The position numbers and the translations under genes are program-made. From Alphaproteobacteria bacterium (GTDB taxonomy: Bacteria > Pseudomonadota > Alphaproteobacteria > UBA9219 > RFNS01): 47,799 nt of DNA. Below the pieces are notes generated by a model. That model worked only from the letters and a program-made list of their open reading frames with translations. It was not told the origin of the DNA and did not search any database. This document shows, one piece after another, positions 6,799-47,023 of this stretch. The stretch covers positions 1-47,799 of the forward strand of contig RFNS01000259.1 in NCBI GenBank assembly GCA_009927055.1. The letters run 5' to 3'. Numbering within the stretch: position 1 is the first letter of the stretch; each line of letters opens with the position of its first letter.

Positions 6799-7821
6799 AT
6801 GGCGCGCGGAGGGAAAGATGACGCACGATCGATGAGCGGAGCCGAACGCGCCGCCGTGCTGATTTTTACATTGGGCGAGGATAGGGCCGCCCGCATTTTC
6901 AGCCACATGTCGGATGACGAGATCAAGGAAATTTCCCAGGCGATGGCCAGCATTGGCACTGTCGGATCGGGCGTTGTGGAGCGTTTATTGTTCGATTTTA
7001 CTGAACAACTTTCCAGCACCAGCTCGATGATGGGGAACCTTGAATCGACCGAACGCCTGCTGGCCAAAGTGTTAGATAAAAACCGTGTTAGCAGCATTAT
7101 GGAAGATATTCGCGGCCCCGCAGGACGCACCATGTGGGATAAACTGGGCAACGTCAGCGAAACGGTGCTGGCCAGCTATTTGAAAAATGAATATCCGCAA
7201 ACGGTGGCGGTGGTGTTGTCAAAAATCACCCCGGATCATGCAGCGAAAGTTTTGGCCGTGCTGCCAGAACCCTTTGCCATGGAAGTTGTCAATCGCATGT
7301 TGCGCATGGAGACTGTGCAGAAAGAAATTCTGGACGATATAGAGCGCACGCTGCGCAGCGAGTTTATGACCAACCTGGCGCGCACCAACAAGCGCGATCC
7401 GCATGAATCGATGGCGGAGATTTTCAACAACCTCGATCGCAGCAGCGAAGCCAAATTCATGACCGCACTGGAGGAACGCAACAAAGAAAGCGCCGACAAA
7501 ATAAAAAGTTTGATGTTCACCTTTGAAGACATTGGCAAGATCAATGATCAAGGCATTCAGGCCATTCTGCGCGTGGCCGATAAAGCCAAGCTGCCCGTGG
7601 CCCTGAAAGGTGCAAACGAAACAATGCGCGGCCTGTTTACACGCAACATGTCAGAGCGCGCGAGCAAACTGCTGATGGAAGATATTGCCTCGCTTGGCCC
7701 CATTCGCGTGCGCGATGTGGAGGAGGCCCAATCACACCTGGCTCAGATCGCGAAAGATTTGCAGGCGAAAGGTGAAATTACAGTGGCGAAAGATAATCAA
7801 CAAGAAGAAATGGTTTACTGA
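6799..7821 (+). CDS. fliG: Flagellar motor switch protein FliG
   Basis: FliG sits on the cytoplasmic face of the MS ring and couples stator ion flow to rotor torque and switching. The 340-residue product has the family's usual length and segments: MSGAERAAVLIFTLGED at the start of the N-terminal FliF-binding domain, the middle domain with EYPQTVAVVLSKITPDHAAKVL, and the C-terminal torque domain with MFTFEDI and the charged helix around RVADKAKLPVALKGANE. ATG 6799 is preceded by GGAAGG inside the fliF end. The gene overlaps fliH by one base (TGATGATG arrangement), pointing to translational coupling. Confidence 0.95.
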   Translation: MARGGKDDARSMSGAERAAVLIFTLGEDRAARIFSHMSDDEIKEISQAMASIGTVGSGVVERLLFDFTEQLSSTSSMMGNLESTERLLAKVLDKNRVSSIMEDIRGPAGRTMWDKLGNVSETVLASYLKNEYPQTVAVVLSKITPDHAAKVLAVLPEPFAMEVVNRMLRMETVQKEILDDIERTLRSEFMTNLARTNKRDPHESMAEIFNNLDRSSEAKFMTALEERNKESADKIKSLMFTFEDIGKINDQGIQAILRVADKAKLPVALKGANETMRGLFTRNMSERASKLLMEDIASLGPIRVRDVEEAQSHLAQIAKDLQAKGEITVAKDNQQEEMVY

Positions 7822-8510
7822 TGATGACGCAGAACGATCCTTCCGTACGCAAATTCAATTTTGGCCGCTCGTTCGATGCCTCGGCCATGGCGGCCGAAAC
7901 ACAAAAGGCCAAGCCGCCCACGTTCACCCAGCAGCAGCTGGATGATGCCAAAAGCGCGGGCTATGCCGAAGGGTTGGCGGCCGGACAAAAAGTGGCGGAA
8001 GAAAATATTTCAGCTTTGCTGAAAAAACTTCATGATCAATTCAAACAGGCGTTTGAGCAACAGGTTCAAGGACAATCGCGCCACGACCAAACCGCCAGCG
8101 AACTTGCCCTGCAGCTGATGCGCAAGCTGCTGCCCGCGTATGAAGCCGAATTTGGCCTGACCGAAATTTCGTTTCTTATTCAAGAAACGCTGCAGGAACT
8201 TTCTCAGGAGCCGCGCCTCGTTGTGCGCGTGGCCGATAGCATGTTCGATGCGGTGAATGAACGGCTGGCGAAATTGACCGAGCGCGCGGCCTTTGCCGGA
8301 AAAATTATTCTGCTGGCTGAAAATGCCATGGGCCCCAGCGATGTGAAAATTGAATGGGCCGATGGCGGATTAGAGCGCGACATGGCCGCGCTTGTGCAAT
8401 CTCTTGAAGCCGCGCTGATCAAGGCGCGCGCGAAGCTGGATGATCGGCCCATTGGTTCATCACAACCGGCCGAACAACAACAGCAACCCACAACCTCACT
8501 GACCACTTAG
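7821..8510 (+). CDS. fliH: Flagellar export-apparatus stator protein FliH
   Basis: FliH regulates the flagellar export ATPase FliI and docks it at the C-ring through FliN. The 229-residue product lies in the standard place between fliG and fliN. It has an N-terminal variable region, the segment AKSAGYAEGLAAGQKVAEE typical of FliH/YscL N-termini, an alpha-helical middle, and a C-terminal domain (ELALQLMRKLLPAYEAEFGL... and LVVRVADSMFDAVNERLAKL) resembling FliH. Two adjacent ATGs exist at 7821 and 7824; the first is used here. The C-terminal tail is Gln/Thr-rich. fliI is not in the window, so FliH and its ATPase are encoded apart. Primary sequence conservation in this family is low, so context carries part of the call. 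Confidence 0.85.
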   Translation: MMTQNDPSVRKFNFGRSFDASAMAAETQKAKPPTFTQQQLDDAKSAGYAEGLAAGQKVAEENISALLKKLHDQFKQAFEQQVQGQSRHDQTASELALQLMRKLLPAYEAEFGLTEISFLIQETLQELSQEPRLVVRVADSMFDAVNERLAKLTERAAFAGKIILLAENAMGPSDVKIEWADGGLERDMAALVQSLEAALIKARAKLDDRPIGSSQPAEQQQQPTTSLTT

Positions 8511-8519
8511 GAGCCCACC

Positions 8520-8837
8520 ATGTCTGATTCTGACTCGCTGACACTTTCCGAACTTGAATCGGATAAAGGAAAAGATACCCCTCCGCCCCAGGCCACGCTG
8601 GAAGATTTGGGCGCTGTTTACAGCATTCCTGTTCAGGTCTCTGCCGTGCTTGGCCGCGCTGAAATGCCTGTCAGTCACTTGCTTAAACTGGGGCGCGGCG
8701 CGGTGATTGAGCTTGATCGCAAAGTGGGCGAAGCGGTTGATATTTACGTGAACAACAGGCTGGTGGCGCGCGGCGAAGTGGTGGTGGTGGAAGATCGTTT
8801 GGGCATCACCATGACAGAAATCATCAAGGCGGAGTAG
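8520..8837 (+). CDS. fliN: Flagellar motor switch protein FliN
   Basis: FliN forms the lower C-ring with FliM and takes part in switching and export. The 105-residue product is mostly a single SpoA domain: YSIPVQVSAVLGRAEMPVSHLLKLGRGAVIELDRKVGE is characteristic. The length fits short alphaproteobacterial FliN proteins. AGGAG lies just upstream of ATG 8520. The first ~30 residues are acidic and unconserved. fliM is not in this cluster. flbD follows four bases after the stop. Confidence 0.95.
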   Translation: MSDSDSLTLSELESDKGKDTPPPQATLEDLGAVYSIPVQVSAVLGRAEMPVSHLLKLGRGAVIELDRKVGEAVDIYVNNRLVARGEVVVVEDRLGITMTEIIKAE

Positions 8838-8841
8838 AGCG

Positions 8842-10179
8842 ATGCGCTTACTAATTATCGGTCAACTCTCTGGCTATATTACCGAAGCCGGCCGCATCGC
8901 GACACAAAAAGGCGCCAAGGTGGCGCATGTTGATACGGTGGAAGGCGGCTTGAATGCCATTCGCATGGGCCAGGGTGGCGATTTGGTGATGGTGGATGTG
9001 AAGCTGGATGTTTATCAGCTTGTCTCTCACCTTCAATCAGAACGCATTCATATTCCTGTGATTGCGTGCGGCATCGGCACCGATTCTGACGCCGCCGTGC
9101 GCGCCATTAAAGCGGGTGCCAAAGAATATCTGCCCCTGCCGCCTGATGCTGAATTAATCGCGGCGGTGCTGGCCGCGGTGGCCGAAGAAAACAACACCAT
9201 TATTGCGAACGATCCTTCTATTCGGGCGGTCATCAGCCTGGCCGATAAAATTGCGGGCAGCGATGCCACCGTGTTGATGACGGGTGAAAACGGCACAGGG
9301 AAAGAGGTTTTGGCGCGCTATGTGCACAACAAAAGCAAACGCAAAAATGCCAACTTTGTTTCGGTTAACTGCGCTGCGATCCCTGATAATCTTTTAGAGT
9401 CAGAATTATTCGGCCACGAAAAAGGCGCCTTTACCGGTGCGGTGGCGCGGCGTGTGGGAAAATTTGAAGAAGCTAGCGGCGGCACCTTGCTGCTGGATGA
9501 AATTTCAGAGATGGATTTGCGCCTTCAAGCTAAATTGCTTCGCGCCATTCAAGAACGTGTGATCGATCGCGTAGGCGGCACACAGCCGGTGAAAGTCGAT
9601 ATTCGTATTATCGCCACCAGCAACCGCGATATGGAATCTGAAGTGAATGCCGGGAAATTTCGCGAAGATTTATATTTCAGGTTAAACGTCGTCAACCTTC
9701 ATCTGCCGCCGCTGCGCCAACGCAAGGCCGATATTGTGCCGCTGGCCGATTTCTTTGGCAAAAAATATGCCGAAGCAAACGGCGTGCCGTACCGACCTCT
9801 CAGCGAACCTGCCAGAGCGATGCTGCAATCTCACCACTGGCGCGGCAACGTGCGCGAGCTTGAAAACACCATGCACCGCGCGGTTTTGCTGGCGCGCATG
9901 GCCGAGATTGAACCCGAAGCGATTGTGCTTTCTGGCACCCAACTTTCAACACCTGGCGGCGGCCCTGCGGCTTTGGCGGGCCAGCCGTGGGTGGGCAGAA
10001 AAGTGGAAGATGTCGAGCGCGATTTGATCCTCGATACGCTCAACCATTGTCTTGGCAATCGCACACATGCGGCCAACATTTTGGGCATTTCCATCCGCAC
10101 GCTTCGCAACAAGCTGAAAACTTATTCCGATTCAGGCGTCACCATTCCGCCACCGCAGGAAGAGCGAGCCGAGGCATGA
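8842..10179 (+). CDS. flbD: Sigma54-dependent flagellar regulator FlbD
   Basis: FlbD is an AAA+ enhancer-binding protein that activates sigma54 promoters of late flagellar genes. The 445-residue product has an N-terminal receiver-like domain, a central ATPase with GENGTGKE (residues 148-155) and the sigma54-contacting GAFTGA loop (195-200), and a C-terminal Fis-type helix-turn-helix around HAANILGISIRTLRNKL. The receiver is degenerate: it starts LLIIGQLSG where normal receivers have an acidic pair, though an Asp is kept at residue 52. This is known for FlbD, which is not a conventional phosphorylated regulator. Its place inside a CtrA-box-headed operon fits the Caulobacter hierarchy in which early genes encode the activator of later ones. 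Confidence 0.93.
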   Translation: MRLLIIGQLSGYITEAGRIATQKGAKVAHVDTVEGGLNAIRMGQGGDLVMVDVKLDVYQLVSHLQSERIHIPVIACGIGTDSDAAVRAIKAGAKEYLPLPPDAELIAAVLAAVAEENNTIIANDPSIRAVISLADKIAGSDATVLMTGENGTGKEVLARYVHNKSKRKNANFVSVNCAAIPDNLLESELFGHEKGAFTGAVARRVGKFEEASGGTLLLDEISEMDLRLQAKLLRAIQERVIDRVGGTQPVKVDIRIIATSNRDMESEVNAGKFREDLYFRLNVVNLHLPPLRQRKADIVPLADFFGKKYAEANGVPYRPLSEPARAMLQSHHWRGNVRELENTMHRAVLLARMAEIEPEAIVLSGTQLSTPGGGPAALAGQPWVGRKVEDVERDLILDTLNHCLGNRTHAANILGISIRTLRNKLKTYSDSGVTIPPPQEERAEA

Positions 10180-10214
10180 TGCTGACGCCCCTTCACCGTT
10201 TCTAAAGGCAACCC

Positions 10215-12338
10215 ATGGCCGACAACGCAGTGGCAACAACCGGGCAAAACGCAGCGCCCCCAACAGGCGGCACAGGAGCGGATATTGGCAATATGTTCAT
10301 GCGCGGCGATGTGTGGATGGCGCTGGGCCTTCTTTTTATTTTGGGCGCCATGGTCATTCCGCTGCCCTCGTTTATTGTCGATCTTGGGCTGGCGCTATCC
10401 ATCACTTTTGCTGTGATTGTTTTAATGACCGTGCTGTTCATCGACCGCCCGCTAGATTTCAGCGCTTTCCCCACCATTCTTCTTATCGCCACGCTTATTC
10501 GCCTCACGCTCAACATCTCAACCACGCGTCTTATTCTCTCTCATGGTCACGAGGGCGAGACGGCCGCAGGCGAGGTGGTGAAAGCCTTTGCCGGCTTTGT
10601 GATGAGCGGTGATTTTATCATCGGGGTCATTGTTTTTGCCATCCTTACCATCGTCAATTTTGTGGTGATCACCAAAGGTTCGGGCCGTATTGCCGAAGTG
10701 GCGGCGCGGTTCACACTCGATGCCATGCCCGGAAAACAAATGGCCATCGATGCTGATTTATCATCGGGGCTGATTGACGAAACAGAAGCCCGCCGCCGCC
10801 GCCGCGATCTGGAAGACGAAAGCAGCTTTTTTGGCGCCATGGATGGCGCGGCAAAATTTGTGCGCGGCGATGCGATTGCGGGCATCATCATCACTTTTAT
10901 CAACATTGCGGGCGGCATTGCCATTGGCATTTTCAGACATGATATGGAAGTGTCGGCCGCGGCTGATAGCTATGTGCGCCTGACGGTGGGTGATGGTCTT
11001 GTCACCCAAATTCCGGCCCTTCTTGTGTCGGTGGCGGCTGGTTTACTTGTCTCCAAGGCGGGGGTTTCAGGGGGCGCTGAAAAAACCATGTTCAGGCAGC
11101 TTGGGAATTATCCCATGGCGCTTGGCCTCACTTCGGTTTTAATGATGACCATGGGCCTTGTGCCTGGCATGCCGCTTATTCCGTTTCTTATTCTTTCGGG
11201 TGGCACGGCCTATGCCGCGTTCACCATGCATCAGCAGCAGCAAACCACCAAACGGCAAGAGCACGCCGCCGCTGAAGCCGCCAAGGTTCAGGTTAAACCG
11301 GCCGAGGAATCGATTTCTAAAACGCTGGCCATGGATCACATCCGGCTTGAGCTTGGCTATGGCCTGCTGGCGCTTGTGAACAGCGATGCAGGACAAAAAC
11401 TGACTGATCAGATTAAAGGTCTGCGCCGTCAAATGGCCAGCGATATGGGCTTTATTATGCCCGCCGTGCGCATTCAAGATAATTTACAGCTGCAGCCCAA
11501 TGCCTATGTCATCTACATCAAAGAAATTGAAGCTGGCCGCGGCGAGGTGCGCCCCAACATGCTGATGGTGATGGACCCGCGCGGCGACACCATTACTCTG
11601 CCTGGCGAAAATACAGTCGAGCCTACCTTTGGTCTGCAGGCCATGTGGGTGTCGCCGCATTATCGGGAAGAAGCCAATTTCAAGGGATACACCGTGGTGG
11701 ATCCGCCCACGGTGATGACAACACACCTAACCGAGGTGATTAAGGATAATATTCCTGAATTGATGACCTACAGCGAAACACAAAAACTTCTGGATGAAAT
11801 GGGCAAGGAGCAGCAAAAGCTGGTCAGCGATGTTATTCCAAGCCAGATCACGGTCACTGGCCTGCAGCGCGTGCTGCAAAACCTTTTGGCCGAGCGTGTG
11901 TCTATTCGCGATCTTTCCAATATTCTTGAAGGTGTTGCCGAAGCCTCGGCCTTTACGCGCAACCTGACACTGATCACCGAGCATGTGCGCTCGCGCCTTG
12001 CGCGCCAAATTTCAGATGATCATACCAGCAGTGTGGGATATATCCCCATCCTCACACTTTCGCCGGAGTGGGAGCAAAACTTTGCAGAAAGCCTGGTGGG
12101 CCAGGGCGAAGATAAACAGCTGGCCATGCAGCCATCTCTGCTTCAATCGTTCATTCGCCATGTGCGCGAGGTGTATGAAAAACACGCCATGATGGGAGAA
12201 AACCCCGTGCTGGTCACAAGCCCCGCCATTCGGCCCTATGTCCGCTCGATTATCGAGCGTTTCAGGTCACAAACCGCTGTTCTTTCACAAAATGAAATTC
12301 ATGCGAAAGCCAAAATTAAAACCTTGGGGATGATATAA
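10215..12338 (+). CDS. flhA: Flagellar type III export gate protein FlhA
   Basis: FlhA is the large export-gate protein of the flagellar type III secretion system, acting in the inner membrane and presenting substrates through its cytoplasmic domain. The 707-residue product has an N-terminal membrane region with several helices (from about residue 30 to 330) and the FHIPEP family signature ARFTLDAMPGKQMAIDADL around 175-195. After about residue 350 comes the soluble domain, ending in a conserved region with VLSQNEI. AAAGGCAACCC precedes ATG 10215. The first ~35 residues are a low-complexity cytoplasmic leader. flhF follows after four bases. Confidence 0.95.
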   Translation: MADNAVATTGQNAAPPTGGTGADIGNMFMRGDVWMALGLLFILGAMVIPLPSFIVDLGLALSITFAVIVLMTVLFIDRPLDFSAFPTILLIATLIRLTLNISTTRLILSHGHEGETAAGEVVKAFAGFVMSGDFIIGVIVFAILTIVNFVVITKGSGRIAEVAARFTLDAMPGKQMAIDADLSSGLIDETEARRRRRDLEDESSFFGAMDGAAKFVRGDAIAGIIITFINIAGGIAIGIFRHDMEVSAAADSYVRLTVGDGLVTQIPALLVSVAAGLLVSKAGVSGGAEKTMFRQLGNYPMALGLTSVLMMTMGLVPGMPLIPFLILSGGTAYAAFTMHQQQQTTKRQEHAAAEAAKVQVKPAEESISKTLAMDHIRLELGYGLLALVNSDAGQKLTDQIKGLRRQMASDMGFIMPAVRIQDNLQLQPNAYVIYIKEIEAGRGEVRPNMLMVMDPRGDTITLPGENTVEPTFGLQAMWVSPHYREEANFKGYTVVDPPTVMTTHLTEVIKDNIPELMTYSETQKLLDEMGKEQQKLVSDVIPSQITVTGLQRVLQNLLAERVSIRDLSNILEGVAEASAFTRNLTLITEHVRSRLARQISDDHTSSVGYIPILTLSPEWEQNFAESLVGQGEDKQLAMQPSLLQSFIRHVREVYEKHAMMGENPVLVTSPAIRPYVRSIIERFRSQTAVLSQNEIHAKAKIKTLGMI

Positions 12339-12342
12339 CATC

Positions 12343-13332
12343 ATGCGACTAAAATCATTCCACGCCGGCACTCTTAGCGAAGCCATGAAAATGGTGCGCG
12401 AGGCGCTGGGCGACGATGCCATTATTGTGGCCACGCGCGATGATGAACAAGGCGGCGTGCGCGTGACCGCCGCGCTGGATGATGACGCAAAACCAGCCAC
12501 CGAAACACCCGCCGCCGCCCCATCTGCCAAACAAACCGATGAAAACGTCATCGACCGACTGGCCAGCCACCTCTATCGCCACGGGGTCACCGCCGCACTT
12601 TCAGAAAAACTTTTGGCCACCGCCATGCACTATAGTGGCGATGATGCCTCTCTGGCGCTGGCCGCCGCGTGCGATGCGCACCTTAAATTCAAACCACTGT
12701 TTCAAACAGCCGATAGAAAACCCATTATTTTTGTGGGGCCGCCGGGGGCTGGCAAAACACTCAGCACCGCCAAAATTGCCACGCAGGCAAAAATTCAAAA
12801 CAAACCTGTGTGCGTCATGACCACCGATACCATTCGCGCTGGCGGGGTTGAGCAACTTTCGTCTTTCACCAAACTTCTCAAGGTTCCTTTGCTGCAAATT
12901 GAAGATACCAACGCGCTGAAAGATGCGCTGAGCGTTCATCAGAACGATATGGTTATCATCGATACTGCCGGCCGCAACCCTTTTGATGCGGCCGATTTGC
13001 GTGAACTTAAATCAATCCTGGGCACGGCGGCGCTGACCATCACCATGGTGCTTCCCGCATCGTATGATACACAAGATGGCGCCGAAATCGCCGCCATTTT
13101 CAAAGAGCTTGGCGCTGGCAGCCTCCTCATCACGCGGGTCGATATGGCGCGTCGTCTCGGCAGCATGCTCAACATCTGTCATCTTGCGGGCATTCCGCTT
13201 GCCGCGCTCAGCCGCTCATCCAACGTCACCGAACCGCTTGAAATTCTCAACCCCGTTCTTCTGGCGAAACTTCTTTTATCGCCACCCCTTTTGCCCCACC
13301 ACAACACCATGCGCGAAGCAAAGCGAGCCTGA
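12343..13332 (+). CDS. flhF: SRP-type GTPase FlhF, flagellar placement
   Basis: FlhF is the third SRP-family GTPase and sets the polar site and number of flagella. The 329-residue product begins with the short basic B domain (MRLKSFHAGTLSEAM), has a Pro/Ala linker near residues 45-65, an N-domain helical bundle, and a GTPase domain with GPPGAGKT (132-139), MTTDTIRAGGVEQL and IIDTAGRNPFD. It is shorter than the ~400-residue Vibrio or Pseudomonas proteins because the B domain and linker are reduced. Its overlap with flhA context and the following flhG is the usual arrangement. Presence of this pair suggests polar flagella, which is inference. Confidence 0.92.
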   Translation: MRLKSFHAGTLSEAMKMVREALGDDAIIVATRDDEQGGVRVTAALDDDAKPATETPAAAPSAKQTDENVIDRLASHLYRHGVTAALSEKLLATAMHYSGDDASLALAAACDAHLKFKPLFQTADRKPIIFVGPPGAGKTLSTAKIATQAKIQNKPVCVMTTDTIRAGGVEQLSSFTKLLKVPLLQIEDTNALKDALSVHQNDMVIIDTAGRNPFDAADLRELKSILGTAALTITMVLPASYDTQDGAEIAAIFKELGAGSLLITRVDMARRLGSMLNICHLAGIPLAALSRSSNVTEPLEILNPVLLAKLLLSPPLLPHHNTMREAKRA

Positions 13333-22873: not shown

Positions 22874-24274
22874 CTACTGCTTTTTTTTCTCATCCATCTT
22901 TCGATAAAAAGTTGATTTTGCCATGCCCAAATTGTCTGCCGCTTTTGTTACATTGCCTGCGCAATCTTCCAGTGTCAGTGCCATGGCTTCTTGCTCTATC
23001 TCATCCATTGTCTTGGGTGTGCCGTCATCTTTTCTCAGGGTGATGTGGCGTGTTTCGGCCACAGTGCGCACAGGCGCTTCGGTTGAAAAACCCTGTTGCA
23101 AATCTTGCAAAATGGCGGCGGTCAAAACATTCTGATCAGACAGCACAAGCGCACGACGCATCAGGTTTTCCAGCTCGCGTACGTTGCCGGGCCAGTGGTG
23201 AGCGCGCAAATAATGCTGCGCATCGGGTGATAATTTTTTTGTCGTGGCCATATCCAGCGCAGCGTAATGCGATAAAAAATGCTGCGCCATCATCGGCACA
23301 TCATCGCCGCGCTCTCGCAAAGGGGGCAGCGTGATGGGCAGCACATTCAACCTGAAAAACAAATCTTCTCTCAAGGCACCTGCCGTCACTTCGTGGGCAA
23401 GGTTTTTATGCGTTGCGGCCAGAATGCGCACATTCACCTTCACCGGTCGCGCAGCCCCTACCGGCTCAATCTCTTTTTGTTGAAGAGCGCGCAAAATTTT
23501 TACCTGCGCATCGGCCGAAAGTTCGGCAATCTCATCAAGAAAAAGTGTGCCGCCTTCAGCCTCTCTAAACTTCCCCAGCGTGCGCTGAATGGCCCCCGTG
23601 AATGATCCTTTTTCATGACCGAACAACGTGCTCTCCACCAAATTAGCCGGAATAGCCCCGCAATTCACCGCAATAAACGGCGCGCCGGCGCGCCGCCCTT
23701 CTCCATGAATGGCGCGCGCAAACAATTCTTTCCCCGTTCCTGTCTCGCCCTGCAACAGCACGGGCGCTTCTGTCAGCGCGGCTTTTTTCCCAATCGCCAC
23801 GGCCGTGCGTAAACCAGAATTGTGACCAATCAAATCGGCGAACGAAAGCGCGCCCGCCTGATCGCGCTTAATTTTCGCCAAATCATTCGCCATGCGCGCA
23901 TAACGCAACGCATTCTCCAATGATAGCGACAGCACATCGGGGTTCAGCGGTTTGGGAATATAATCGGCCGCGCCCAATTTCATCGCTTGCACGGCATGCG
24001 ACATATCATCACTCGCCGTCAGCACAAGCACCGGCAAACTAGAACGCAGATTTTTAATAGCGCTCAAGGCCTCTAATCCGTTCATGCGTGGCATGAACAC
24101 ATCTAAAATAACCGCAGCAATATCTTCGGGGTGCGATCGCTCAACCGCCGCTACCGCCTCATCATCATCGCTGGCTTCCACAACGTTGAAGCCCATTTTT
24201 TTTTGCAGAAGCACCTTCAGCATTTCCCGCTGCAATGGCTCATCCTCCGCGATTAAGATCGTTTCAGAACTCAT
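22874..24274 (-). CDS. NtrC-family sigma54 response regulator
   Basis: The 466-residue product is a complete phosphorylation-controlled sigma54 activator. A receiver domain covers residues 1-120 with the acidic pair E10/D11, phosphoacceptor Asp58 and the KPL lysine near 108. The AAA+ domain has GETGTGKE (176-183) and the sigma54 loop as GSFTGA (223-228), a serine variant of GAFTGA. A Fis-type helix-turn-helix ends the protein (NVTKAADNLGMAKSTFYRKM). It is transcribed away from the receiver-protein and hybrid-kinase operon starting at 24423. A sigma54 promoter lies in the shared region, so that operon is the likely target. The cognate signal is unknown. It is distinct from FlbD, which has a degenerate receiver. 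Confidence 0.92.
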   Translation of the reverse strand: MSSETILIAEDEPLQREMLKVLLQKKMGFNVVEASDDDEAVAAVERSHPEDIAAVILDVFMPRMNGLEALSAIKNLRSSLPVLVLTASDDMSHAVQAMKLGAADYIPKPLNPDVLSLSLENALRYARMANDLAKIKRDQAGALSFADLIGHNSGLRTAVAIGKKAALTEAPVLLQGETGTGKELFARAIHGEGRRAGAPFIAVNCGAIPANLVESTLFGHEKGSFTGAIQRTLGKFREAEGGTLFLDEIAELSADAQVKILRALQQKEIEPVGAARPVKVNVRILAATHKNLAHEVTAGALREDLFFRLNVLPITLPPLRERGDDVPMMAQHFLSHYAALDMATTKKLSPDAQHYLRAHHWPGNVRELENLMRRALVLSDQNVLTAAILQDLQQGFSTEAPVRTVAETRHITLRKDDGTPKTMDEIEQEAMALTLEDCAGNVTKAADNLGMAKSTFYRKMDEKKKQ

Positions 24275-24276
24275 GC

Positions 24277-24355
24277 GTATGATTATAAGAATAATAGTTC
24301 TAATAAATTCTCAATATCGAACTAATTTTCATTCACTGATGCGGTTAAATCATAC
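24277..24355. promoter_or_regulatory. Candidate enhancer region with inverted repeats
   Basis: The AT-rich gap between the NtrC-type gene and the divergent operon holds two inverted-repeat pairs: GTATGATT (24277-24284) with AATCATAC (24348-24355), and TAGTTC (24295-24300) with GAACTA (24319-24324). They lie about 55 to 135 bases upstream of the predicted sigma54 start near 24411, the normal range for enhancer sites. Binding by the neighbouring activator is inference. Confidence 0.4.
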
Positions 24356-24382
24356 AACCCATTGATCATCATCATTTCTAAT

Positions 24383-24400
24383 TTTGGCACTCAATATGCA
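24383..24400 (+). promoter_or_regulatory. Sigma54 (RpoN) promoter of the phosphorelay operon
   Basis: TTTGGCACTCAATATGCA contains the invariant GG (24386-24387) and GC (24398-24399) at the required 10-base spacing, inside TTGGCAC and ATGCA blocks close to the consensus TGGCAC-N5-TTGCA. Transcription would begin near 24411. That excludes the in-frame ATG at 24396 as a start codon and leaves ATG 24423 with a short leader holding AGAGA. A sigma54 activator is encoded directly upstream in the opposite direction. Confidence 0.75.
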
Positions 24401-24422
24401 GTGTGATGATCAGAGAAAAAAA

Positions 24423-25286
24423 ATGATTATCAATGATGAACATGCAGAAACCAAATTTCTCAAACTTCTGGAGAGGCCGGAAGACATTGCGAGATTAAGG
24501 CTTCTGACTATCACCGCCGCCAAGGCCAATAAAAATATCATCGCCCAAAATTTGATCAGTCAGGCGCACCAATCATTTCTAGAAAACGCGCAAGCGTTTT
24601 TATGCATCGATGGCGATGTTTTCATTACCTCAGAATCTCTTTCAGCGCGCGATGCGAAACGGCTGATTGATGCGCTGGTGGCTGAAAAAATTATTGCGCT
24701 GTCATCACGCCAAGAATTGATGGATATGGCCACAAACGTTACGCGCATTAAAAGCATCATGCTTCAAAAAGAAGATCATGAAAGAAAAAAAACAGAAGCC
24801 GCACAAAAAATTTCGGAAGAAAAAGAAAAACTGCAACGCCGCAAAGATATTCTAACATCCGCGCAGCATTTTGCTCAACATCAATCGTGCAGAGAGAGGC
24901 GCGCCGCGCACAGCAGGCCGCATGTGATGCTGATTGAAGATGATCATTTCTCTCGCCGTCTGGTTGAAAATATTATTCCAAAAACCATTCAGGTGCTCAG
25001 TCTCTCAACGGCCGAGCGCGCGATATCATCTTATCTGGCCACTGCGCCACATCTTTTGCTGCTCGATATCAACCTGCCCGATGTGACAGGTCATGAACTG
25101 TTGCAGGAAATTATCAAACTGGATGCGGAAGCGTGCATTGTCATGCTCAGCGGTAATGCCGACAAAGAAAATATCTCTCAAGCCATGAAACTGGGTGCCA
25201 AAGGTTTTATTGCCAAGCCATTTACGCGCGAAAAAATACTGCAATACCTGGAAAAATTTTCATTGATCAAAAAACAAGGAGAATAA
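24423..25286 (+). CDS. Protein with C-terminal receiver domain, paralogue 1
   Basis: The 287-residue product has an unrecognised N-terminal region of about 115 residues, a Lys/Glu-rich probable coiled coil (about residues 115-150) and a C-terminal CheY-like receiver. The receiver shows LIEDD, phosphoacceptor Asp215 in LLLLDINLPD, the switch serine in VMLSG and the conserved lysine in AKPF. Receivers are usually N-terminal; here it is last. I chose ATG 24423 because the predicted sigma54 start (~24411) lies after the other possible ATG at 24396. The next gene is a divergent paralogue with the same order. A phosphate shuttle or an output through the unknown N-terminal region is possible; neither is shown by sequence. 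Confidence 0.8.
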   Translation: MIINDEHAETKFLKLLERPEDIARLRLLTITAAKANKNIIAQNLISQAHQSFLENAQAFLCIDGDVFITSESLSARDAKRLIDALVAEKIIALSSRQELMDMATNVTRIKSIMLQKEDHERKKTEAAQKISEEKEKLQRRKDILTSAQHFAQHQSCRERRAAHSRPHVMLIEDDHFSRRLVENIIPKTIQVLSLSTAERAISSYLATAPHLLLLDINLPDVTGHELLQEIIKLDAEACIVMLSGNADKENISQAMKLGAKGFIAKPFTREKILQYLEKFSLIKKQGE

Positions 25287-25287
25287 C

Positions 25288-26136
25288 ATGCGCCTGATCA
25301 CAGAAAACACTTATGATTATCTTCAGCCACTTCTTGTGTCGCTTGAGCGTGACCCTCTCAGCCTGTGTGGGTGGCAGGCTGTCAAAATTTCTGCGCCCAG
25401 CCAGCAAAACTTTCTGCTCAAAAATCTTTCGCAACTGCCTCAAATTTATGGCGCGCATGATGGCGATGTTGTCCGCTCGTGCGAGGGAGATATTCTGATC
25501 CTCAGTCGCGAGATGAAGCGCGCCGAGTTGGAGCAGATGTGCGCCTTTATTCTGCAGGAAAACGAGGCCACGCCACAATTTTTTGATGCTTATACCGATT
25601 GGCGGCAACTGCGAGCGTTTGTGGCCGATCTTGTGCTGCAATCACGTCGTCAAAGCTGTGGCCGTCCTTCTGTCATCACTCCTCCGGTGGGCATTTTTGG
25701 TGAAACGTCGGCCATGAAAGGCATTTTAGATGACGCACGAAAAAGAAGAAAGTGCCGCAGCCCGCTGCATGTTCTTGTTGTGGAGGATGACCCTTTAACG
25801 CGCCGCATTATCGCCAGTTGCCTGAAAGATGACCACGCCCTCATCACAGCCACCAACGCGCATGAAGCTGTGGCCAATTATCTGATCTACGCGCCCGATA
25901 TTGTTTTTCTTGATATTGGTTTGCCCGATGTCGATGGTTTTGCAGCGCTGCACGAAATTGTGGCGAACGATCATGACGCTTATGTGGTCATGCTTAGCGC
26001 CAACAGTTATCTGGATAATGTCACGGCCGCACTCAACGCCGGCGCTTCTGGCTTTATTGGCAAGCCATTCAAAAGAGACCAACTGCTGCAATATATTGGC
26101 GATAGCGCCGCCCATCATCGCAAAACCTTGAATTAG
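25288..26136 (+). CDS. Protein with C-terminal receiver domain, paralogue 2
   Basis: The 282-residue product shares the layout of the preceding gene: an N-terminal region of about 150 residues without a recognised domain, a basic linker (RKRRKCRS) and a C-terminal receiver with VVEDD, Asp209 in VFLDIGLPD, VMLSA and GKPF. The N-terminal parts show limited likeness (GDVFITSES against GDILILSRE), suggesting an old tandem duplication. AAGGAG precedes ATG 25288, one base after the previous stop. No DNA-binding or enzymatic output domain is visible. It is followed nine bases later by the hybrid kinase. Confidence 0.82.
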   Translation: MRLITENTYDYLQPLLVSLERDPLSLCGWQAVKISAPSQQNFLLKNLSQLPQIYGAHDGDVVRSCEGDILILSREMKRAELEQMCAFILQENEATPQFFDAYTDWRQLRAFVADLVLQSRRQSCGRPSVITPPVGIFGETSAMKGILDDARKRRKCRSPLHVLVVEDDPLTRRIIASCLKDDHALITATNAHEAVANYLIYAPDIVFLDIGLPDVDGFAALHEIVANDHDAYVVMLSANSYLDNVTAALNAGASGFIGKPFKRDQLLQYIGDSAAHHRKTLN

Positions 26137-26144
26137 AGGCGGCG

Positions 26145-28892
26145 ATGAAACTCCTCAACCCAAAAAATCTCAAACATAAAAATCTGCTTACGCTGTCTAT
26201 CATTCTTTCTCTTGTCGCCCTTCTAGCGTGGGCGGTGGGATATTGGGGATACAGCCTTGAGATGGTGAAAACGCACCAGGTGGCCATTGTGCTTCTTGTG
26301 GCTTTTGTGGCGGTGATTTTTGCCAAACTTGTGCATCAACAAAATTTGGCCAAACAAACACTGCGCATTGTCACGCTGCTGAAGACCGTGACAACGGCCG
26401 CCAACGAAGCCACCTCCATCACCACAGGGTTAGAGGAGAGCCTGAAAATTCTGTGTCAATTTGCGGGATGGCCCGTGGGACACGCTTATATTTATCAGGA
26501 AGAAAGCAAAAAACTGACAAGCTCTGGCGCGTGGTATATTCAAGACCCGAACAAATATCATCAGTTCCGCTGGGAGAGTGAGTGCCACACCTACACACCC
26601 GGCGTGGATTTTATCGGAGAATCTTACGCCGATTGCACCCCTCTATGGCTTTTAGATGTGAGCACGTCAAACGTCTATGCGCGCAAAAATTCAGCCATGG
26701 CGTGCGGGCTGCGCACCGCACTTGCCTTTCCCATTATGATTGGGAAAAAGCCCGTGGGCGTGATTGAATTTTATTCAACAAAAGCCGAGGTACCCGCGCA
26801 AGAACTGTTAAGCGCCATGGCCAATATTGGCCGGCAACTTGGCCAGGTGATTGAGCGCGGCCTGGCCTCGCGCAAGGCCATTCTTCTTGAAACTGTGCTG
26901 CAAAGCGTGAAAGATGGCGTGATCATTACCAACAATGATCTTGATCAGGGTGGGCCAGAAATTATTTACGTCAACAATGCTTTTACCGAAATTTCGGGTT
27001 ATTCTCAGCACGAAATTATTGGAAAAACACCACGAATTTTGCAAGGGGCCGAAACAAATAAAAACACGCTGCACGAAATAAAACAGCGTCTGCGCCAGAA
27101 AATGCCGTTCAACGGCGAGTTGCTGAATTATTCAAAAGAAGGTCATCCTTACTGGCTGGGCATCAGCATTGTGCCCATTGTGGATGAAAGCGGTAGCGTG
27201 ACACATTTTGCGGCGGTTGAGCGCGACATCACCCAGCAAAAACACGCGCAGGCCGAGTTAAATGACACACTGCAGCAATTGCGCATTGCCAACGAAAAGA
27301 CAGAAAAGTATTCTCACGAACTTGAAATTTCTCTGAAACGGGCCGAAGAAGCCAACCGCGCCAAAAGTGATTTTCTTGCGAACATGAGCCACGAATTGCG
27401 CACGCCCATGAACGGGGTGTTGGGCATGACGCATTTGCTGGAAGATACCGCCCTCTCTGATGAGCAGAAAGAATATGTTAGCACCATTGGCGGCTCAGCC
27501 GAGACGTTGCTTGTGCTGCTGAATGATATTTTAGATATTTCAAAAATCGAAGCGGGCGCGCTGGAACTTGAAAAAATTCCCTTCGCGCTGCACCCAACGG
27601 TGCAACAAACAGTTGATTTGCTGCGGCCGCAGGCCATTAAAAAAGGCATTGATATTTTTCTGGATATCGATCGTCAGTTGCCGTCGCATATTTGGGGCGA
27701 TCCTGGTCGCTTCAGGCAGATTATTACAAATTTGCTGGGCAATGCGGTCAAATTTACAGAAAATGGATATGTGGGCGTCACGTTAAACGCCAGTGGAAAA
27801 AATATACAAATGCTGGAAATTTCTGTGACCGATACCGGCATTGGCATTCCCAGAGACAAGCTGGATAAAATTTTTGATAAATTTTCGCAGGCCGATGCCA
27901 GCGTGACACGCAAATTTGGCGGCACGGGTCTTGGTCTGGCCATTACCAGGCAGTTAGTGCAGATGATGGGCGGCGGCATTCATGTGACAAGCACGGTGGG
28001 GCACGGCTCTAGCTTTGTGTGTCATATTCCCTATGCTGTGGCTGATGATGCTGATATTAAAAATTTTCATGATCAGCTTTTTTACATTGCGCCCACAGAT
28101 AGGAAAAAAATAAAAATTGAAAACGCGAAAGCGTTATTGGTGGAAGATTATCCTGTTAATCAGATTTTTGCAGAAAAACTATTGAAAAAATTTGGCTTAA
28201 CATCGATTGCGCTGGCTACAAACGGGAAAGAAGCCATCGAAAAATGCAAAGAAACGGCCTATGATGTTATTTTTATGGATTGTCAGATGCCAGAAGTTGA
28301 TGGCTATCAAGCCACGCAAAAAATACGCGAAGAAGAAAAAAATCTTGGCCGGCATGTGCCCATCATCGCCATGACAGCGAATGCTATGGTGGGCGACAAA
28401 GAAAAATGCCTGAAAGCCGGCATGGATGATTATCTGACAAAACCACTGCGGGCTGATCATGTTCGCCGCGCGCTTTTGAATTTTTTTAAACTTTCGGGCA
28501 ACAGCGTGGGCGAAAAAATATCGGCCAGCACGCCCGCAGAATTGCCCACCCATTCATCATGTCCCATCAACATGGAGCAACTGCGATTATTTACCGATGG
28601 CGATGTGCAGGAAGAGCAGCATCTTATTTCTCTGTTTCTTGAGCAGGCGTATGAAATTGTGTCTGTGCTGCAGCACGCGATGACGTATGATGATGCTTCG
28701 GCCTGGCAATCGGCCGCGCACAGATTGAAAGGCGCTTCGGGCAATCTGGGCGCCGAGAGCCTGCGAGAGGCGTGCTATGCCGCCGAGCAGAACCGCGATG
28801 CCACAAAGGCGCAAAAAGAAATGATGCTGAAAACCATTCAGGGCCTTATCGACAGCATTGCGGCGTACTTTAGGCAAAGCATTTCACACTAG
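26145..28892 (+). CDS. Membrane hybrid histidine kinase, GAF-PAS-HisKA-HATPase-REC-HPt
   Basis: The 915-residue product is a complete multistep phosphorelay kinase. Two membrane helices (about residues 14-36 and 44-62) enclose only a very short loop, so it has almost no periplasmic sensor. A GAF domain (~80-240) and a PAS domain (~250-370) follow and probably sense a cytoplasmic cue. HisKA has His416 in NMSHELRTPMNG; the ATPase has N533, DTGIGIP and GGTGLGLAI. The receiver carries Asp712 in VIFMDCQMPEVDG, and the C-terminal HPt has His859 in AHRLKGASGNLGA. The architecture resembles BarA/ArcB. The HPt can pass phosphate to the two operon-mates with C-terminal receivers and perhaps to the NtrC-type activator. 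GAGGCGGCG precedes the start. Confidence 0.92.
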   Translation: MKLLNPKNLKHKNLLTLSIILSLVALLAWAVGYWGYSLEMVKTHQVAIVLLVAFVAVIFAKLVHQQNLAKQTLRIVTLLKTVTTAANEATSITTGLEESLKILCQFAGWPVGHAYIYQEESKKLTSSGAWYIQDPNKYHQFRWESECHTYTPGVDFIGESYADCTPLWLLDVSTSNVYARKNSAMACGLRTALAFPIMIGKKPVGVIEFYSTKAEVPAQELLSAMANIGRQLGQVIERGLASRKAILLETVLQSVKDGVIITNNDLDQGGPEIIYVNNAFTEISGYSQHEIIGKTPRILQGAETNKNTLHEIKQRLRQKMPFNGELLNYSKEGHPYWLGISIVPIVDESGSVTHFAAVERDITQQKHAQAELNDTLQQLRIANEKTEKYSHELEISLKRAEEANRAKSDFLANMSHELRTPMNGVLGMTHLLEDTALSDEQKEYVSTIGGSAETLLVLLNDILDISKIEAGALELEKIPFALHPTVQQTVDLLRPQAIKKGIDIFLDIDRQLPSHIWGDPGRFRQIITNLLGNAVKFTENGYVGVTLNASGKNIQMLEISVTDTGIGIPRDKLDKIFDKFSQADASVTRKFGGTGLGLAITRQLVQMMGGGIHVTSTVGHGSSFVCHIPYAVADDADIKNFHDQLFYIAPTDRKKIKIENAKALLVEDYPVNQIFAEKLLKKFGLTSIALATNGKEAIEKCKETAYDVIFMDCQMPEVDGYQATQKIREEEKNLGRHVPIIAMTANAMVGDKEKCLKAGMDDYLTKPLRADHVRRALLNFFKLSGNSVGEKISASTPAELPTHSSCPINMEQLRLFTDGDVQEEQHLISLFLEQAYEIVSVLQHAMTYDDASAWQSAAHRLKGASGNLGAESLREACYAAEQNRDATKAQKEMMLKTIQGLIDSIAAYFRQSISH

Positions 28893-45517: not shown

Positions 45518-47023
45518 ATGGACCTGATTCACGTTGCCGATGCAGTGGCCCGCGAAAAATCGATTGATAAAGAAGAAGTGCTGGCCGCGATGGAAGAAGC
45601 CATCCAAAAGGCTGGCCGCACCAAATATGGCCTAGAGCATGATATTCGCGCCACCATCGATCGCAAAACAGGTGCCACGCGCCTGCAACGCTATCGTCAG
45701 GTGACCGAGCTGGTGGAAAACGAATTTACGCAAATGACCGTTGAGCAGGCCAAGCGCGAGAAAAAAGATGCCGCGGTGGGCGAATTTCTGATTGATGATC
45801 TGCCGCCCATTGATTTTGGACGCATCGCCGCCCAAACCGCCAAGCAGGTGATTGTGCAAAAAATTCGTGATTTTGAGCGCGATCGCCAGTTTAATGAGTA
45901 TAAAGATCGCGTGGGCGAAATTGCCAGCGGCATTGTGAAGCGTGTGGAATATGGCAACGTCACGGTCGATCTGGGCCGCACCGAAGCCGTGCTGCGGCGC
46001 GATGAAACCATCCCGCGTGAGCATTTCAAAAACGGCGATCGCATCAACGCCTATATTTACGATGTGCGGCGCGAGCAGCGCGGGCCGCAAATTTTCTTGT
46101 CGCGCACGCACCCCATGTTTATGGCCAAACTTTTTGCGCGCGAAGTGCCCGAAATTTATGATGGCATTATCGAAATTAAATCGGTGGCGCGTGACCCCGG
46201 AAGCCGCGCCAAAATTGGCGTTTTCAGTAACGACAGCAGCATTGATCCGGTGGGCGCCTGCGTGGGTATGCGCGGCAGCCGCGTGCAGGCTGTGGTGGCC
46301 GAACTGCAAGGCGAAAAGGTTGATATCATCCCCTGGTCGCCCGACCCCGCCACGTTTGTGGTCAACAGCCTTGCGCCGGCCGAAGTCAGCAAAGTGGTGC
46401 TGGACGAGGAAAACAACCGCATCGATGTGGTGGTGCCCGATGAACAATTATCGCTGGCCATTGGTCGTCGCGGTCAAAACGTGCGTCTGGCCGCCATGTT
46501 AACGGGTCTGGATATTGATATTTTAACCGAGAAGGAAGAAAGCGAACGCCGTCAGGAAGAAAACAAACTGCGCACCGCGCTGTTTATCGAAGCGTTATCG
46601 GTTGATGACATGATCGCACAGCTGCTGGTGGCCGAAGGCTTCAGCAAGGTTGAGCAGGTGGCCGATATCGCGCTGGATGAACTGGGCGAGATTGAAGGCT
46701 TTGACGCCGAAGTGGCGGGCGAGCTTCAACAGCGCGCGCGCGATTGGCTGCAGGCCCGCGCCGCCGAGATGGAGCGCAAGCGCAAAGAACTGGGTGTGGA
46801 TGATGCGGTGCTGGGGCTGCCGCACTTAACACCTAATGTGGCGGTGAAGCTGGGTGAAAAAGGCATTCGCACGCTGGATGATGTGGCCGATCTGGCCAGT
46901 GATGAACTGCGCGAGGCCGTGGGCGCCGACCATATGCCCGAAAGCCGCGCGAATGAAATCATCATGGCGGCACGCGCTCACTGGTTTAAGGATGAAGCGC
47001 CCGCCGCTTCGCCTGAAGCCTAG
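45518..47023 (+). CDS. nusA: Transcription termination/antitermination factor NusA
   Basis: NusA binds RNA polymerase and modulates pausing, termination and antitermination. The 501-residue product has the N-terminal polymerase-binding domain, the S1 domain (about 130-200: GIVKRVEYGNVTVDLGRTEA), two KH domains with DPVGACVGMRGSRVQ and SLAIGRRGQNVRLAA, and two C-terminal helix-hairpin-helix repeats (from EGFSKVEQVADI and from EKGIRTLDDVADLA). GAAGGAG precedes ATG 45518. The C-terminal repeats match the longer proteobacterial type. Confidence 0.97.
   Translation: MDLIHVADAVAREKSIDKEEVLAAMEEAIQKAGRTKYGLEHDIRATIDRKTGATRLQRYRQVTELVENEFTQMTVEQAKREKKDAAVGEFLIDDLPPIDFGRIAAQTAKQVIVQKIRDFERDRQFNEYKDRVGEIASGIVKRVEYGNVTVDLGRTEAVLRRDETIPREHFKNGDRINAYIYDVRREQRGPQIFLSRTHPMFMAKLFAREVPEIYDGIIEIKSVARDPGSRAKIGVFSNDSSIDPVGACVGMRGSRVQAVVAELQGEKVDIIPWSPDPATFVVNSLAPAEVSKVVLDEENNRIDVVVPDEQLSLAIGRRGQNVRLAAMLTGLDIDILTEKEESERRQEENKLRTALFIEALSVDDMIAQLLVAEGFSKVEQVADIALDELGEIEGFDAEVAGELQQRARDWLQARAAEMERKRKELGVDDAVLGLPHLTPNVAVKLGEKGIRTLDDVADLASDELREAVGADHMPESRANEIIMAARAHWFKDEAPAASPEA

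Follow-up and report, generated by a model that had tools for sequence, protein, structure and literature searches.

Gene organization of the locus

The window, a 47,799-nt stretch of alphaproteobacterial DNA (contig RFNS01000259.1), contains a 148-bp gap between an NtrC-type activator gene on the minus strand (22874-24274) and a divergent set of three closely packed genes on the plus strand (24423-28892). The first two of these genes (24423-25286 and 25288-26136) share an architecture, an unassigned N-terminal part followed by a C-terminal receiver domain. The third (26145-28892), which is kept downstream in relatives, encodes a hybrid histidine kinase in which Pfam identifies GAF, PAS, HisKA, HATPase, receiver and Hpt domains. 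Intergenic distances of only 1 nt and then 8 nt give the three genes the character of an operon (receiver, receiver, hybrid kinase), a point absent from an earlier reading of this DNA made from sequence only. The N-terminal parts of both receiver proteins (24423-24900 and 25288-25770) have no Pfam match. The AlphaFold prediction for the receiver protein is confident for the receiver domain only, with low confidence in the N-terminal part, and none of the best fold hits matched beyond the receiver domain.

The sequence-only reading had placed an NtrC-family gene beside the gap, and Pfam bears this out. The activator has a receiver domain, a sigma54-interaction AAA+ domain and a Fis-type HTH (HTH_8), the domains expected of a group 1 bacterial enhancer-binding protein (bEBP), together with a GAFTGA-type loop, here GSFTGA. 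Both GSFTGA and GAFTDA have been reported as functional loop variants in Desulfovibrio (PMC4641369). Its score against the NtrC equivalog TIGR01818 is 376.7 bits, under the curated cut-off of 558.6, and it likewise falls under the equivalog cut-off of all the named families listed, including NtrC, FlbD, AtoC, NtrX and LuxO. We found three clear sigma54-type activators in the genome, an assembly fragmented into 315 contigs: the protein just described, FlbD (window 8842-10179, an NCBIfam equivalog with an intact GAFTGA loop), and an NtrX-type protein. Because the last lacks a GAFTGA loop, at most two activators could serve a sigma54 promoter in the gap. RpoN itself is encoded in the genome (PF04552, E 5.8e-65). 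Among the named database hits, those ranked highest come mostly from Alphaproteobacteria, which points to that class. The same contig also carries a flagellar cluster with fliG, fliH, flbD, flhA and flhF (window 6832-13332).

A predicted sigma54 promoter and the start of the receiver gene

Between the activator gene and the first receiver gene lies a -24/-12 element, TTGGCACTCAATATGCA (24384-24400, plus strand; TTGGCAC-TCAA-TATGCA), that agrees with TGGCAC-N5-TTGC at 9 of 10 positions. The earlier claim of a near-consensus site with GG and GC at a 10-base spacing was confirmed, the core bases being GG at 24386-24387 and GC at 24398-24399 with a spacing of exactly 10 bases. Dinucleotide shuffling of the 148-bp gap produces a same-strand site of equal quality with P = 0.0013. 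Counted against the promoter reading, the spacer is AT-rich and is without the G usual after TGGCAC. Scoring with an RpoN matrix, which had also been proposed, counts against it as well: a matrix built from the relatives' sites puts this one 10th among 95,562 window positions, behind nine that lie in genes.

About a dozen 9-10/10 matches occur in the window, most inside genes; among them the exact consensus match at 45663-45677 (minus strand), within an opposite-strand gene, and another at 11201, inside flhA, look like background and were set aside. Across the genome we counted 48 copies of TGGCAYN5WTGC, compared with 35 for an N4 spacer and 12 for an N6 spacer, and a crude gene caller placed 39 of the 48 inside genes. 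Intergenic copies directly upstream of a same-strand gene number four for N5, one for N4 and none for N6, the four N5 sites including 24384-24400, one before an apparent flagellar hook gene (L161) and one before a GGDEF protein. We dropped these genome-wide counts as evidence, as they are too noisy and consist mostly of genic matches. Since the pattern is so frequent inside genes, a sequence match alone is little proof.

A simple gene caller had put the start of the first receiver gene at ATG 24396, a codon within the -12 element that shares its reading frame with ATG 24423. When translation is read from 24423, all 17 distinct full-length relatives align with the protein from its first residue and have an ATG there, which provides independent support for the earlier choice of ATG 24423 over ATG 24396 and fixes the start of the gene at 24423. 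From standard -24/-12 geometry, transcription would start at about 24411 and leave a predicted 12-nt leader, CAGAGAAAAAAA (24411-24422, plus strand). The distance from promoter to ATG is identical in one relative, G554, and longer in other relatives.

Other features of the gap were also considered. There is no Rfam match around it. On either side of the promoter, at window 24363-24371 and 24404-24412, are the arms of a perfect 9-bp inverted repeat, TGATCATCA/TGATGATCA; as an operator it was set aside, as it is absent from the alignment of the relatives, and shared AATCATAC words were set aside as operators because that alignment shows none.

The predicted promoter is conserved with the activator loop

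Searches for relatives used the receiver protein and the activator as queries, and the gene neighborhood was found to recur in diverged genomes. We scored GG-N10-GC as a site if it lay no more than 110 nt from the start of the receiver gene. Of 13 loci whose activator has a GAFTGA-type loop, 12 have such a site upstream of that gene (G000, G016, G008, G505, G554, G522, G428, G451, G430, G540, G507a and G438), compared with a chance background of about 0.025 per locus for an 85-position window. In this set the activator is tandem rather than divergent in G522 and G507a and lies about 2 kb away in G430, and the receiver start is uncertain in G438. The 13th loop-intact locus, G267, has TGGCACAGCACTTGT, a GG-N10-GT one base off. 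In an alignment of the gaps, the -24/-12 elements of the window share their columns with the sites of G554, G505 and G535.

Unrelated sequence stands in place of the activator loop in six loci (G142, G476, G553, G433, G489 and G515, the last with its activator split over two contigs), and in none of the six was GG-N10-GC found. Loss of GG/GC in close relatives had been named beforehand as the test that could refute the site; what we observe is retention in 12 of 13 loop-intact loci and absence in the six loop-less ones. RpoN is present in all four relatives tested, including the loop-less G142. Because relatives keep the site together with the sigma54-contact loop and are without it when the loop is lost, the promoter is very probably real and worked by the adjacent regulator. 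Counted against this explanation is G475 (L306), with a 10/10 sigma54 site upstream of its receiver gene; in its assembly we found no FlbD and no ortholog of the activator. At the promoter position upstream of rec1 in the loop-less G489 (L294) we noted TTGGCGAGCTTGTGCA, with GG and GC 9 bases apart, which may be a decayed sigma54 site.

A Fisher test on five lost loci gives P = 0.0007, a value that treats related loci as independent, and for this reason we prefer the result from the trees. A tree of the activators groups the five loop-less proteins that were tested first into a single clade (97/90) whose sister is the loop-intact G505; G515 joins this clade. As all six loop-less loci form one clade, promoter and loop were lost together in one event, not six, and this single co-loss is well supported. 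The receiver tree provides 2-4 independent contrasts, of which two lie on well-supported branches in the expected direction; with so few contrasts a sign test cannot reach significance.

A candidate operator upstream of the promoter

Absent from the earlier reading is an enhancer-like operator near -90. In the closest relatives of the window it is 28 bp long, TTCTCAnnnTCGAACGnnnnnnTGAGAA, and the window has a candidate upstream activator sequence, TTCTCAATATCGAACTAATTTTCATTCA, at 24308-24335 (plus strand), centered at about -89. The left half in the window, TTCTCAnnnTCGAAC, matches at 12 of 12 positions, a score never reached in 5000 shuffles. The right half is degenerate, and the overall match is 13/19 (P = 0.05). 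Relatives score higher, with 19/19 in G476, G535 and G515, 18 in G505 and 17 in G142; G489 and G554 have the operator with one base shifted. The center falls at -89 in the window (G000), at -90 in G554 (in a related register) and at -91 in both G505 and G535, where the full dyad is found. A distance of about 90 bp is typical for an enhancer-binding protein. A weak candidate for a further half-site, TAAGAATA (24286-24293, plus strand), aligns with TGAGAATA of the relatives.

Four of the loop-less loci (G142, G476, G489 and G515) have kept the operator with the promoter gone, which argues that the operator belongs to the regulator and not to sigma54. A sigma70-like promoter candidate for the activator gene (24291-24320, minus strand) overlaps the operator, so autoregulation of the activator is possible; the consensus scan found two such minus-strand candidates in the gap against 1.0 expected in shuffles, a weak excess. 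The best reading of 24384-24400 is a sigma54 promoter of the ordinary type, with a putative activator and enhancer of its own.

Proposed regulation of the operon and alternatives

We consider it highly probable that 24384-24400 is a working sigma54 promoter with a start near 24411, and that it drives the operon at 24423-28892 through the divergent activator bound at 24308-24335. The predicted promoter, the loop, the candidate operator and the synteny can all be read from the genomes compared, as can the way they vary together. In the proposed sequence of events, RpoN-RNA polymerase would wait at 24384-24400 as a closed complex, and the activator would bind its operator at about -89 once its own receiver domain is phosphorylated. 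DNA looping would then let the GSFTGA loop of the AAA+ ring contact sigma54, and the activator would open the promoter by hydrolyzing ATP. The product of the operon would be more of the hybrid kinase and of the two receivers of the same pathway, and because these are what the operon encodes, positive feedback within one signaling pathway is likely. That the hybrid kinase is the phosphate source of the activator is a guess from adjacency.

The site might instead be a real sigma54 promoter driven mainly by FlbD, which would make the operon part of the flagellar programme. The flbD gene also lies in the window, its product has an intact loop, and a sigma54-type site precedes the apparent flagellar hook gene elsewhere in the genome. 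We regard this as improbable, because the site tracks the adjacent activator and not FlbD: FlbD-like proteins with GAFTGA are present in G495 and G419, which are without an ortholog of the adjacent activator and also without the site, and in G515, where the activator is loop-less and the site is likewise missing. The operator near -90 moreover lies in the gap that the operon shares with the adjacent activator. More doubtful still is a chance match, with the operon transcribed from an unrecognized sigma70-type promoter and perhaps translated from ATG 24396 or TTG 24384. The abundance of the GG/GC pattern in genes of this genome speaks for chance; the placement kept in nearly all loop-intact loci, against the low background per locus, speaks against it, as do the common start of the relatives at the codon equivalent to 24423 and a consensus scan that found no sigma70-like promoter on the plus strand of the gap. 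Sigma54 holoenzyme binds DNA stably without opening it, so the site could serve repression or silent binding, a reading to which we give very little credence because activation fits both the joint absence of loop and promoter and the geometry of the -90 operator.

About 13 relatives have a truncated haemoglobin gene next to or within the orthologous locus (L122, L250, L286, L290, L292, L294, L298, L299, L301, L302, L308, L312 and L313), which hints at oxygen or nitric oxide as the signal; we found no such gene in the genome to which the window belongs. We found no paper joining truncated haemoglobin, a hybrid kinase and sigma54. Genes resembling ShlB/FhaC-type outer-membrane transporters occur near the activator in G008 (L122 8412-10097) and G267 (L251 2428-4155).

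Relation to known systems

Judged by its sequence features, the site is a predicted sigma54 promoter that is paired with an enhancer-binding protein of group 1. The system resembles those of NtrC-type bEBPs in its receiver, AAA+ domain with GAFTGA-type loop, Fis-type HTH, -24/-12 promoter and candidate operator about 90 bp upstream. It differs in that the activator lies below every named equivalog cut-off listed and, compared with NtrC, in that it is predicted to control phosphorelay genes of its own instead of nitrogen genes. In Caulobacter, TacA is a GAFTGA-bearing activator that works with the ShkA-ShpA phosphorelay, comprising a hybrid kinase and an Hpt. The window locus is similar in having a GAFTGA-type activator, a hybrid kinase and an Hpt, but its kinase has its own Hpt and is encoded divergently together with two receivers. 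A Caulobacter homolog (L040) and other alphaproteobacterial homologs form a group separate from the activator of the window.

The loop-less clade invites a different comparison. NtrC of Caulobacter and of Rhodobacter capsulatus has lost the GAFTGA loop and acts at sigma70 promoters (PMC10274813), and the loop-less activators described here also retain their receiver, AAA+ domain and HTH. Unlike those proteins, the clade has loop-intact sisters in whose corresponding gap the ancestral sigma54 promoter and the operator are available for comparison. Its loop is replaced, its -24/-12 element is gone, and at least four of its six loci retain the operator. On balance this favors, with some reservation, a reading in which the same regulator of the same operon in G142, G476, G489, G515, G433 and G553 switched from sigma54 activation to sigma54-independent control.

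Overall, what began as a lone motif match is now a predicted circuit that comprises an activator, an operator, a promoter and the operon they would serve; for this lineage, the libraries searched named no regulator of the activator's group. What the comparison adds is a probable loss of sigma54 dependence for which the state of promoter, loop and operator can be read both in loci with the loop and in loci without it. How regulators without GAFTGA act at non-sigma54 promoters is an open question for Caulobacter NtrC (PMC10274813), and the loop-less clade offers matched natural pairs for addressing it. If the proposed switch is true, the intact sister loci would make this family a natural experiment in an enhancer-binding protein leaving sigma54.
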